The notes below the pieces were generated by a model that saw only the letters and a program-made list of their open reading frames with translations, had not been told where the DNA came from and searched no databases. A stretch of 64,000 nt of DNA, taken from Marinobacter alexandrii (GTDB lineage: Bacteria > Bacteroidota > Bacteroidia > Cytophagales > Cyclobacteriaceae). The stretch is from positions 2,860,501-2,924,500 of the forward strand of contig JBDWTN010000007.1 of NCBI GenBank assembly GCA_039984955.1, written 5' to 3'. Below, piece after piece: positions 22,110 through 29,699 of the stretch. Both the position numbers and the translations under genes were made by a program. Each line of letters starts with the position of its first letter. The stretch's first letter is position 1.

Positions 22110-23369
22110 TTAAACAATCAAATTCAGAAGATCTGGTTGATCATTAAGATATTCTCCGAAGAAACGTTTCCGCTTCATTCTATCGATAAGTGACAAGAGG
22201 TCTCTTTTATCCTTTAGCTCAATTCCTACTACCGCAGCTCCTTTTTCACGCGAATTCTTTTTGGTATACTCAAAATGAGTAATGTCATCTTTAGGTCCCA
22301 GAATTTCAGCGACAAACTCTTTTAAAGCTCCTGCACGCTGGGGGAACCGCACTACGAAGTAATGCTTAAGTCCTTCGAATAGAAGTGCTCTTTCTTTGAT
22401 TTCTTCCATTCGTGTAATGTCGTTGTTGCTACCGCTAACAAGACATACCACATTTGTTCCCTTAATCTTATTGGAAAGCTGACTCAGAGCAGAGATAGTA
22501 AGGGCTCCCGCCGGCTCCACGACTATGGCATCTCGATTGTATAACTCTAGCATAGTTTTGCAAATTTCCCCTTCAGGCACAGTTATCACTTCATCTATAA
22601 TCTCTTTGCAAATCGCAAAAGTGAGATCGCCGACCTGCTGTACAGCTGCTCCATCTACAAACTTATCTATGTGATCCAGAGGAGTATTTTCACCATAGTC
22701 TAAGGCATGCTGCATAGATGGCGCTCCCAATGGCTCTACCCCAATAATCTTCGTTGATGGGGAGAGTGTTTTAATGACTGAGCCTACACCAGCTGCCAGT
22801 CCACCACCACCAATAGGAAGCAATAGATAGTCAATGGGTTGAGATACTTGTTCCAGCAATTCCAACCCTATTGTGGCTTGGCCTTCGATGACTTTTAGGT
22901 CGTCAAAAGGATGAATGAATGATGCATTTCTTGATTTAGAAAATAGCAGGGCAATTTCCTTCGCTTGATCAAATGTGTCTCCCTCTAATTGGATTTCCAC
23001 ATATTCTTTCCCAAACATTCGCACCTGCTCCACCTTTTGCATTGGAGTGGTCGATGGCATGAATATGACTCCTTTTGTCTGGAGTTTTTGACAGGAAAGT
23101 GCTACTCCCTGCGCATGATTGCCTGCGCTTGCGCAGACTACTCCATTGGCCAACTCTTGTGGGGATAGAGATTGCATTTTGTTAAAAGCACCTCTGATCT
23201 TATAAGATCTCACTGGCTGTAAATCCTCTCTTTTCATCAGAATGTTTGCCTGAAAGAAAGAGGAGTAGTTTAGGCTTGGCAATAGAGGAGTGTAAGCCGC
23301 AACTCCTTTTAAAGTAGATGCTGCGGCTTTTACACTATCTAAACTAATAACGTGTTCTTTTACTTCCAT
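22110..23369 (-). CDS. ilvA: Threonine dehydratase (threonine deaminase) IlvA
   Basis: IlvA converts threonine to 2-oxobutanoate, the committed step to isoleucine, with pyridoxal phosphate. The 419-residue protein shows the PLP lysine motif RSYKIRGAFNKM near residue 57, SAGNHAQGVALSC near 82, the phosphate-binding loop PIGGGGLAAGVGS near 188 and VSGSNNDI near 311. A single C-terminal ACT-like domain (YFVVRFPQRAGALKEFV onward) could bind isoleucine as feedback inhibitor. It is the last gene of the leu-ilv array, 25 bases after ilvC. Confidence 0.96.
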   Translation of the reverse strand: MEVKEHVISLDSVKAAASTLKGVAAYTPLLPSLNYSSFFQANILMKREDLQPVRSYKIRGAFNKMQSLSPQELANGVVCASAGNHAQGVALSCQKLQTKGVIFMPSTTPMQKVEQVRMFGKEYVEIQLEGDTFDQAKEIALLFSKSRNASFIHPFDDLKVIEGQATIGLELLEQVSQPIDYLLLPIGGGGLAAGVGSVIKTLSPSTKIIGVEPLGAPSMQHALDYGENTPLDHIDKFVDGAAVQQVGDLTFAICKEIIDEVITVPEGEICKTMLELYNRDAIVVEPAGALTISALSQLSNKIKGTNVVCLVSGSNNDITRMEEIKERALLFEGLKHYFVVRFPQRAGALKEFVAEILGPKDDITHFEYTKKNSREKGAAVVGIELKDKRDLLSLIDRMKRKRFFGEYLNDQPDLLNLIV

Positions 23370-26745: not shown

Positions 26746-28422
26746 TCAATTATCAGTTAAGCACCCCTGAGATGCAGATGAAACCATTTTGGCATATTTG
26801 TAAAGTGTGCCTCGTTGAATTTTTAGTGAAGGGGCGGACCAATTGGCTTTTCGCTGTTCTAACTCCTGATCGCTTATCTCCAGTTTTATGCTATTCTTCT
26901 CCGCATCTATTGTAATTGTATCTCCAGTTTTCACCAGAGCAATAGCTCCTCCTTCTTGAGCTTCAGGCGAGATATGACCTACTACAAACCCATGAGTGCC
27001 TCCTGAGAATCTTCCATCGGTGATTAATGCTACTTCTTTTCCAAGTCCTACTCCCATAATTGCAGCAGTTGGTTTGAGCATTTCGGGCATCCCTGGGCCA
27101 CCTTTTGGGCCTTCGTAACGAATGACGATTACATCTCCTTTTTCTATCTCCCCATTCTGGATTCCGTCATTTGCAGCATACTCTCCATCATATACTTTGG
27201 CTTTACCAGTGAACTTCAAACCTTCTTTTCCGGTGATTTTAGCTACTGCTCCTTCTTCTGCAAGGTTTCCGTGAAGTATTTGAATATGACCTGATGGTTT
27301 AATAGGGTGATCTACAGGATAGATGACTTTCTGTTCAAAAGAAAGATCTGGAACGGTTGATACATTTTCTTTGAGTGTTTTTCCTGTAACCGTCATGCAC
27401 TCACCGTCAATCATACCCAGCTTAATCAAGTATTTTAGAATAACAGGCATACCACCCATGAGATGAATGTCTTCCATCAAGTGTTTACCGCTGGGTTTTA
27501 GATCGGCCAGAAAAGGAGTTTTGTCACTGATATGCTGGAAATCAGATAATTTGAAGTCAACACTTGCCGCATCAGCGATAGCGAGAAAGTGCAGGACTGC
27601 ATTAGTAGATCCTCCTAATACAGTTAAAAGTGTTACTGCATTTTCAATGGCGGTTTTCGTAACAATATCAGAAGGCTTAAGATCCTTTTCTAATAAGGTC
27701 ATGAGGTATTCACCTGCTTTCTTACTTTCATGAACCTTTTCTTCACCTACCGCTGGATTAGACGAGTTGTAGGGCAAAGACATACCTAAGGCTTCTATGG
27801 CAGAAGCCATGGTGTTGGCCGTATACATTCCTCCACATGCACCTGCGCCAGGGCAGGCATTTTCTATTACCTGTTGATATTCATTTTCCTCTATCTGACC
27901 TGAGACTTTTTCACCCCACGCCTCAAAGGCAGAAACAACATCTAACTTTTTATCATTGAGGCATCCAGAAGCAATGGTGCCCCCGTATACCAGAATTGAA
28001 GGGCGATCTAATCGCAGCATAGCCATTAGTGCACCAGGCATATTTTTGTCACATCCTACCACGGTGATTAAACCATCATAACTCATGCCCCTTACTACAG
28101 TCTCCATAGAATCGGCAATTAGATCACGGGAAGGAAGTGAGTAACGCATGCCTGGTGTTCCCATAGAAATACCATCACTTACTCCAATCGTATTAAAGAT
28201 TAGTCCATTTCCACCACACGAATTGACCCCCTTTTTGACATGAATGGCAAGGTCATTCAGATGCATATTGCATGGGTTTCCCTCAAACCCTGTGCTCCCG
28301 ATACCAATCAAAGGTTTTTTGAGATCTTCTTTGCTCAAACCTATTGCATGAAGCATAGCTTGCGCCGCAGGTTGTGAGGGATTTTGTGTAACTATTTTGC
28401 TGTATTTGTTTAGTTCTTTCAT
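26746..28422 (-). CDS. ilvD: Dihydroxy-acid dehydratase IlvD
   Basis: IlvD dehydrates the dihydroxy acids to the 2-oxo acid precursors of valine and isoleucine using an iron-sulfur cluster. The 558-residue protein keeps three cluster cysteines: Cys 51 (EGNPCNMHL), Cys 124 ([10 protein letters not shown]) and Cys 196 ([14 protein letters not shown]). A C-terminal [15 protein letters not shown] motif is also present. It is the first gene after the leader-peptide attenuator at 28438-28559 and so is directly controlled by it. Confidence 0.97.
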
Positions 28423-28437
28423 GAAAGTAATGGCATT

Positions 28438-28468
28438 AAAAAACCCTTCTTTTTTTGAGAAGGGTTTT
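28438..28468 (-). terminator. Attenuator terminator hairpin before ilvD
   Basis: On the minus strand AAAACCCTTCT (28468-28458) and AGAAGGGTTTT (28450-28440) form a perfect 11-bp stem with a 7-base loop, followed by two more T. It ends 16 bases before the ilvD start codon, so a transcript stopped here would contain leuB and the leader peptide but not the ilv genes. Its left arm overlaps the partner of an antiterminator segment. Confidence 0.85.
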
Positions 28469-28502
28469 GATTTTTTTTGGATATATCAATACTCTTCTCA
28501 GC

Positions 28503-28559
28503 TTATATCTGAATGACAATGACATTAAAAATGATAATGCGGGTACTAGTATTCACCAT
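28503..28559 (-). CDS. Ile/Val-rich leader peptide of the ilv attenuator
   Basis: This 18-codon frame on the minus strand reads MVNTSTRIIIFNVIVIQI and then stops. Eight of its last eleven residues are Ile or Val, the end products made by the downstream ilv genes. It starts 22 bases after the leuB stop codon and ends 35 bases before the terminator hairpin. The composition, position and pairing segments together make a regulatory leader peptide far more likely than chance. No Shine-Dalgarno sequence is visible, as is usual in this phylum. Confidence 0.85.
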   Translation of the reverse strand: MVNTSTRIIIFNVIVIQI

Positions 28560-28580: not shown

Positions 28581-29699
28581 TTAGATTATACAATTAAGTG
28601 AGATTTTGGCTGAATCATCTTTGATCTTCATATCCCCTTCTTCTTCTATGAACCAAGCAACGACATCTCCGATTTTTGAGCATGAACTGGATTCTTTACC
28701 AGCACTTAGATCTTGAGTGATAATGTCATTGTCCAAGGCCCACTTGATACCATTTTTAATCATTTCAGCTTCTGAAAAGAGTCCGAAATGCTCGTACATC
28801 ATTGCAACTGAAAGAATGGCAGCCATAGGGTTGGCAATATCTAATCCTTGGGCTTGTGGGTACGAGCCATGAATAGGCTCAAACAACGCTACTTTCTTCC
28901 CGACTGAAGCGGAAGGTAACATTCCCAATGATCCGGTAATTACACTAGCTAAGTCTGAAATGATGTCGCCAAACATATTCTCAGTAAGGATTACATCAAA
29001 TTGACTTGGGTTAAGCACAATTTGCATAGCTGCATTGTCCACAAAGAGATAATCAACAGTAACTTCAGGATATTCCTGACTTATTTCTTGCACCACCCGT
29101 CTCCAAAGCCTGGATGTTTCAAGTACATTGGCTTTATCTACCAGCGTAAGTTTTTTTCTTCTGGCAGAAGCTGCTTCAAAAGCTTGATAGGCAATCCTGC
29201 TTATTTCTTTGTCTGAGTATTCACAAAGATCTGAGGCGTGAGTTTTATCCTCGGATAACTTTTTCTCCCCAAAATATATTCCTCCTGTTAGCTCCCGATA
29301 GATAACAAAATCTACTCCGTCGAGTAAGGTGTTTTTTAGAGGAGAAACGTTGAAAAGAAGGTCATATGTACTAATCGGTCGAATGTTTGAAAACAACTCT
29401 AATGACTTTCTCAGCTTGAGCAATCCTTGTTCCGGACGTACTGGAAGATTAGGGTCATTGTCATATTTTGGATCCCCAATGGCACCTAGATATACAGCAT
29501 CACTTGTGAGACATGCGTCCAGAGTTTCATCTGTGAGTGGAGTGCCGTATTTATCGATGCTTATCGCTCCAAAATCAGCTTCTTTTAGCTCGAAGTGATG
29601 ATCGAACAAGTGATTTATTGCTTTAATCACTTTTAATCCCTGATTCACTACTTCAGGACCTATGCCATCTCCGGGTAATATTGTTATTTTCTTTTTCAT
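28581..29699 (-). CDS. leuB: 3-isopropylmalate dehydrogenase LeuB
   Basis: LeuB oxidatively decarboxylates 3-isopropylmalate with NAD in leucine synthesis. The 372-residue protein shows ILPGDGIGPEVV at the start, ELTGGIYFGEK near residue 137, KANVLETSRLWRR near 187, the metal-binding Asp motif NMFGDIISDLASVITG near 240 and PIHGSYPQAQGLDIANP near 275. It is last of the four leu genes, and the ilv leader peptide begins 22 bases after it. Confidence 0.97.
   Translation of the reverse strand: MKKKITILPGDGIGPEVVNQGLKVIKAINHLFDHHFELKEADFGAISIDKYGTPLTDETLDACLTSDAVYLGAIGDPKYDNDPNLPVRPEQGLLKLRKSLELFSNIRPISTYDLLFNVSPLKNTLLDGVDFVIYRELTGGIYFGEKKLSEDKTHASDLCEYSDKEISRIAYQAFEAASARRKKLTLVDKANVLETSRLWRRVVQEISQEYPEVTVDYLFVDNAAMQIVLNPSQFDVILTENMFGDIISDLASVITGSLGMLPSASVGKKVALFEPIHGSYPQAQGLDIANPMAAILSVAMMYEHFGLFSEAEMIKNGIKWALDNDIITQDLSAGKESSSCSKIGDVVAWFIEEEGDMKIKDDSAKISLNCII

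Follow-up and report, generated by a model that had tools for sequence, protein, structure and literature searches.

A putative isoleucine/valine leader-peptide attenuator within a leu-ilv operon and the spread of similar leaders in Bacteroidota

Introduction

The enterobacterial ilvGMEDA and ilvBN operons share a layout in which a short Ile/Val leader is followed by a terminator and a competing antiterminator, with the ilv genes downstream. The pheM attenuator of Escherichia coli is co-transcribed with the preceding genes and also has its own promoter. The leu-ilv operon of Lactococcus lactis carries a Leu leader, and its attenuator precedes the leu genes. In Bacteroidota, the Bacteroid-trp RNA is linked to trp genes, and attenuators of Bacteroidetes/Chlorobi are reportedly mentioned by Vitreschak et al. 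in 2004.

Both enterobacterial ilv operons are named as attenuators in the available text of PMC1183508, in which theory identifies control codons as those whose tRNA is the first to lose its charge. The available part of PMC5371410 tabulates the E. coli pheM attenuator between rplT and pheM. Furthermore, leader-peptide attenuation is suspected for amino-acid biosynthesis operons of Flavobacterium psychrophilum, according to the available text of PMC9723704. Here we describe a candidate attenuator in a stretch of Bacteroidota DNA of 64,000 nucleotides (hereafter the window), where it lies between leuB and ilvD, and compare it with related loci.

Organization of the leu-ilv locus

On the '-' strand of the window, the genes run in the order leuACDB, leader, terminator and ilvDBNCA. 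The leu and ilv genes were named by sequence recognition and operon context, together with tblastn matches to relatives. The features of the locus are as follows.

32816-31653, '-' strand: leuA (ORF listing; named by sequence recognition and operon context)
31653-30283, '-' strand: leuC (named by sequence recognition and operon context)
30293-29706, '-' strand: leuD (named by sequence recognition and operon context)
28581..29699, '-' strand: leuB, last gene of the leu half (ORF; matched to relatives by tblastn)
28583-28581, '-' strand: leuB stop codon (sequence)
28503..28559, '-' strand: leader frame MVNTSTRIIIFNVIVIQI with its stop (sequence; conserved in five other genus genomes)
28559-28557 and 28505-28503, '-' strand: leader ATG and leader stop codon TAA (sequence)
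28548..28553, '-' strand: proposed segment 1, AATACT (sequence; weak pairing in the window)
28494..28500, '-' strand: segment 2, TGAGAAG, antiterminator strand, 2 nt past the leader stop (sequence and folding)
28488..28493, '-' strand: AGTATT, proposed partner of segment 1 (sequence)
28489-28485 and 28471-28467, '-' strand: inner helix TTGAT/ATCAA (folding prediction)
28456..28462, '-' strand: segment 3, CTTCTCA, antiterminator partner (sequence and folding)
28440..28468, '-' strand: terminator hairpin, with arms AAAACCCTTCT (28468-28458) and AGAAGGGTTTT (28450-28440)
28438..28443, '-' strand: terminator T-run (sequence)
26746..28422, '-' strand: ilvD, first gene under the putative attenuator (ORF)
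past ilvD, ending at 22110, '-' strand: ilvB, ilvN, ilvC and ilvA, in this order (ORFs)

The gap between leuB and ilvD measures 158 nt, and the leuB stop codon is separated from the leader ATG by 21 nt. The sequence-only reading of this DNA had placed an 18-codon Ile/Val frame between the two genes; such a frame is present at 28559-28503, and all the segments named with it were found in the window sequence at the positions listed above. Of the 18 codons of this predicted frame, nine specify Ile or Val (6 Ile and 3 Val). The terminator consists of a perfect 11-bp stem, a 7-nt loop and six T, and lies 15 nt ahead of the ilvD ATG. It has segment 3 in common with the antiterminator, and this segment can enter either the 2:3 (antiterminator) or the 3:4 (terminator) pairing. 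Judged by its anatomy, the element is a leader-peptide attenuator internal to a leu-ilv operon.

A leader of the same kind was found before leuA in none of 50 distinct upstream regions (each at least 350 nt long), which fits a two-level control of the operon. An inverted repeat, TTTCGAC...GTCGAAA, lies just ahead of leuA at 32871-32834 of the window, with Leu codons between its arms; there is no ATG in the frame of these codons, and the repeat was not obvious by eye in other sequences of the genus.

Conservation and covariation of the antiterminator

The genus set comprised ten genomes, nine of which have ilvD, and yielded eight readable leuB-ilvD junctions, including that of the window. One genome (G006) was left out because its contig begins inside ilvD, and another (G002) because it gave neither ilvD nor a leuB match. 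Alignment of leuB-ilvD spacers from relatives had been proposed as a check on the frame and its pairings, and it supports the frame, the terminator and the 2:3 pairing. Six of the eight junctions (G000, which is the window's genome, G001, G003, G005, G007 and G008) carry an Ile/Val-rich leader, a CCCTTCT/AGAAGGG terminator and segment 2. The antiterminator core, TGAGAAG/CTTCTCA, is almost invariant across the genus, which says little because segment 3 also serves the terminator. The pairing continues beyond the core, and the contiguous 2:3 run reaches 9 pairs in all in G001 and G008 and 12 in G003, G005 and G007. Here, position 8 is C-G in G001 versus T-A in G003, G005, G007 and G008, and position 10 is A-T in G005 and G007 versus T-A in G003, with a mismatch in G001 and G008. 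Compensatory changes thus occur at two positions among the six genus sequences, within the terminator loop or next to it. In G003, G005, G007 and G008 the covarying bases sit in that loop, which makes the antiterminator the simplest cause of the covariation; in G001 the position 8 base has a pairing partner in the terminator as well. Positions 8 to 10 of the 2:3 run are gone from the window, which keeps 7 pairs.

The element has been lost from the two remaining junctions, G004 and G009, in both of which leuB still adjoins ilvD. The attenuator is eroded in G009. In G004 (L009/L144), GAGAAGG of segment 2 runs directly into the T-run, and the apparent cause is a deletion between segments 2 and 4, which are alike by design. 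As a separate observation, the IlvD proteins of G003, G004 and G009 (L008, L009 and L010) are 59-61% identical to that of the window, with LeuB at 77-80% and IlvB at 79-82%; these genomes may have exchanged ilvD alone, downstream of the leader.

Predicted folding of the leader RNA

With predicted energies of -12.7 kcal/mol for the antiterminator (including the inner helix TTGAT/ATCAA) and -13.3 for the terminator, the two structures appear balanced in the window. In ribosome-free folding, 2:3 is predicted to form already before segment 4 is made, and the minimum for the whole transcript is the terminator, so that the outcome must rest on the order of folding. As both the 2:3 and the 3:4 pairing had been a condition of detection, our first swap tests of them were circular; the test of 2:3 was replaced by one on leaders found without requiring an antiterminator. 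In 62 non-redundant leaders of this sort, the 2:3 run averages 7.84 pairs, compared with 5.30 after shuffling and 5.47 after swapping, and only 35 of the 62, taken singly, beat their shuffles at the 5% level. In the 49 leaders with at least 7 pairs, the median start of segment 2 lies 6 nt upstream of the end of the stop codon. In the window, with 2 nt between the stop codon and segment 2, a ribosome at the stop would cover segment 2.

The sequence-only reading had further proposed a 1:2 pairing, AATACT/AGTATT. Six base pairs are indeed possible, but the helix is absent from the minimum-energy folds of the window, and the best 1:2 duplex energy of the window (-11.1) does not stand out from swapped pairs, which average -11.6. 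In G005, G007 and G008, segments 1 and 2 are predicted to form helices of about 9-12 bp. Among 82 leaders, relatives included, the leader's own 1:2 duplex was among the top 5% relative to swapped partners in 19 (about 4 expected), and 25 of the 82 reached the 5% level against codon-shuffled leaders. Together, this excess and the missing helix in the window make a 1:2 protector hairpin likely for the group of leaders and doubtful for the window's own copy.

Distribution of leaders upstream of ilv genes

The detector called leaders with at least 8 I/L/V in 12 codons and a terminator 8-60 nt past the stop, and did not require an antiterminator. Upstream of ilvE/ilvD, it returned 94 distinct sense leaders versus 5 antisense matches in the same 114,643 bases. 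Two non-random samples were used. For the family sample, 148 genomes were searched and 136 had an IlvD match; upstream sequence was taken from 69, mostly those with the highest IlvD similarity, and 62 of these were counted after dropping five with less than 400 nt upstream and two without orientation (G087 and G106). The named sample consisted of 79 of the best 80 IlvD-match loci, and at least three genomes are common to both samples (G011/L048, G023/L067 and G143/L110). An I/L/V-rich leader with a terminator was present before the first ilv gene (ilvE or ilvD) in 53 of the 62 family genomes and 45 of the 79 named loci; G106, outside the count, shows a leader as well. When leuB lies directly upstream, 36 of 47 examined records have a leader (23/26 family, 13/21 named), which does not support the earlier view that a leader between leu and ilv genes is exceptional in Bacteroidota. 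Flavobacteriaceae, Saprospiraceae and Chitinophagaceae are represented among the named positives, as is one Ignavibacteriae record; the set therefore covers a large part of the phylum and may reach into a neighbouring one.

At the locus itself, no Rfam family reached its gathering score. The best right-strand match at a lax threshold was Phe_leader (RF01859; 28435-28550, 23.1 bits versus a gathering score of 55, E 0.12), which was rejected, as were Leu_leader (RF00512; 13.1 bits versus 50) and rnk_pseudo (31.5 bits versus 55), both on the other strand. The covariance model of Bacteroid-trp (RF01692) gave no match in the window, nor in any of the ten genus genomes at E 0.001. The counts in relatives and these Rfam comparisons suggest that the window's element is one member of a widespread Bacteroidota set that Rfam does not cover.

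Two Ile/Val-type leaders in series, each with a terminator, are called by the detector ahead of the first ilv gene in six of the 62 family genomes (G018, G023, G062, G065, G083 and G098; L026, L031, L036, L123, L126 and L016) and in nine of the 79 named loci (L041, L051, L072, L089, L091 and L095 among them). A longer Val/Ile frame lies upstream of ilvD in L030, L033 and L035 (G153, G120 and G057); its end can pair downstream (CTCTTTGG/CCAAAGAG) without a T-run, and it is perhaps a different switch.

Promoter-like sites ahead of the leaders

Bacteroidota promoters have the consensus TTG, 18-21 nt, TAnnTTTG. We scored this simple consensus in the 110 nt before each of 98 leaders and counted a site wherever 8 or 9 of its 9 positions matched. 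Such a site was found before 64 of the 98. Among leaders without leuB upstream, 41 of 62 had one (9.5 expected from shuffles), as did 19 of 25 with a leuB-leader spacing of 46-120 nt (2.9 expected; some sites reach into leuB) and 4 of 5 with a spacing above 120 nt (0.6 expected). At a spacing of 45 nt or less the count was 0 of 6, which, with 0.4 expected, indicates that the usual site is missing but does not establish that a promoter is absent. Ahead of the window's leader, the best score against the same consensus was 6/9 in the last 110 nt and 7/9 in the last 400 nt.

As most leuB-adjacent leaders keep a promoter-like site, the usual state behind leu genes is probably promoter, leader and ilv genes, that is, start-of-unit attenuators. 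In G005, G007 and G008, for example, a terminator-like hairpin past leuB is followed by a promoter-like site. These scans led us to abandon the view that attenuators located behind leuB are as a rule internal. The six tightly spaced loci are G000 and G001 of the window's genus, G045, L076, and G063 and G123 of one genus, which amounts to about four lineages. Tight spacing without a promoter-like site being confined to these few loci, the arrangement in the window appears to be a derived one that arose as spacer and promoter were lost, and its attenuator looks truly internal. A leader after leuB as such is common (36/47); the strictly internal state is seen in few loci, the six tight ones. In G063 and G123 (L121 and L122), the start codon of the leader and the stop codon of leuB share bases (TAATG), an arrangement suggestive of translational coupling between leuB and the leader.

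Valine codon usage of the leaders

Of the 231 Val codons in 62 non-redundant leaders, 114 (49%) are GTC, versus 10% in ilvD of the same loci. ATC accounts for 22% of Ile codons in leaders versus 28% in ilvD, and without a rise in ATC the excess of GTC is not a general rise of C at third positions. In 37 of 42 comparable loci, the leader had a larger GTC share of Val codons than ilvD (sign test 4e-7, a certainty overstated by related loci), and the codon pair GTC-ATT occurs 53 times, second only to ATT-ATT. In the window, the leader has two GTC and one GTG, and 12 genes contain 43 GTC among 316 Val codons (14%). Applying control-codon theory here, the leader GTC may be a starvation-sensitive control codon. 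A tRNA-Val(GAC) is present in 8 of 10 genus genomes. In the window's genome, neither a pattern search nor a DNA search turned one up, the tRNA survey there having scored 150 of 354 candidates; tRNA-Ile(GAT) was absent among 30 of the 34 matches from that survey.

Discussion

We consider it probable that ilvDBNCA are governed by a ribosome-dependent leader-peptide attenuator situated within a leuACDB-ilvDBNCA transcript. Transcription would start before leuA, and the polymerase would pass leuB and enter the leader. With enough charged tRNA-Ile and tRNA-Val, the ribosome would reach the leader stop and cover segment 2, whereupon the 3:4 terminator would halt transcription ahead of ilvD. If Ile or Val were short, the ribosome would stall on codons 8-16, segments 2 and 3 would pair, and ilvDBNCA would be transcribed. 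The leuACDB genes, lying upstream of the switch, would escape this control.

The main rival to this reading is that the attenuator is decaying and its hairpin is now mostly a fixed partial terminator with little response to Ile/Val. The weak 1:2 and the shortened 2:3 pairing of the window, weaker than the copies of its relatives, leave room for partial decay, and two genus members are without the element. We nevertheless judge it quite unlikely, given that the Ile/Val run, the spacing between stop codon and segment 2, and the 11-bp terminator all remain, and that the predicted antiterminator and terminator energies are still balanced. It is also unlikely that the ilv genes are transcribed separately from a promoter located within leuB or behind it, which would make the attenuator one of the normal start-of-operon type. 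That seems to be the usual state in relatives, as judged from the sites before 19/25 (46-120 nt) and 4/5 (>120 nt) of leaders behind leuB and from the leuB hairpins followed by promoter-like sites in G005, G007 and G008; in the window, however, the leuB-leader gap is just 21 nt and the best scores stay at 6/9 and 7/9 within 110 and 400 nt.

Short frames are common and hairpins occur between genes, and the small frame could in principle be a chance one beside an ordinary intercistronic terminator or RNA processing site. This explanation is highly improbable in view of the Ile/Val-rich frame kept in 6/8 genus junctions and 53/62 family genomes, the 94 distinct sense leaders versus 5 antisense matches, and the GTC bias.

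On a wider scale, we lean somewhat towards a scenario in which uncatalogued Ile/Val attenuators tuned to GTC, a rare Val codon, occur before ilv(E)D throughout the phylum. In about four lineages, the window's included, they would have lost the promoter and become an internal valve of a fused leu-ilv operon, with TAATG coupling in G063/G123. The relatives suggest likely steps along this path: separate units, each with a promoter of its own, then an internal attenuator, and finally its loss. One transcript may carry two levels of control, the leu half following the promoter and the ilv half following the supply of Ile/Val. Bacteroidota start most genes without a Shine-Dalgarno sequence. Attenuation needs close coupling of transcription and translation, and the element thus bears on such coupling in this phylum. 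Further, the GTC bias allows a direct test of the theory in which control codons are read by the tRNAs most sensitive to starvation (PMC1183508, available text).

Our literature search, which covered few subscription papers, returned no recognisable paper on a Bacteroidota attenuator for Ile/Val that lies between leuB and ilvD. Attenuators of this kind have long been known; within the literature searched, what is new is the placement in a fused leu-ilv operon without a promoter-like site of its own, together with the breadth of distribution, the GTC bias and the overlap in G063/G123. Like the window's element, the Bacteroid-trp RNA (RF01692) is an RNA element of Bacteroidota, as described in the available text of PMC2864571. 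The suspected attenuators of F. psychrophilum belong to the same phylum, but the available text of PMC9723704 positions them upstream of operons and names no operon. The E. coli pheM attenuator resembles the window's in being of the leader-peptide type and inside a gene cluster, and differs in its Phe codons and in the genes concerned, those of phenylalanyl-tRNA synthetase. The L. lactis operon shares the order of leu genes followed by ilvDBNCA; its attenuator lies before the leu genes, whereas that of the window lies after leuB. The enterobacterial ilv attenuators share with it an Ile/Val leader, a terminator, a competing antiterminator and ilv genes downstream; these stand at the 5' end of their operons, whereas the window's follows four leu genes without a promoter-like site.
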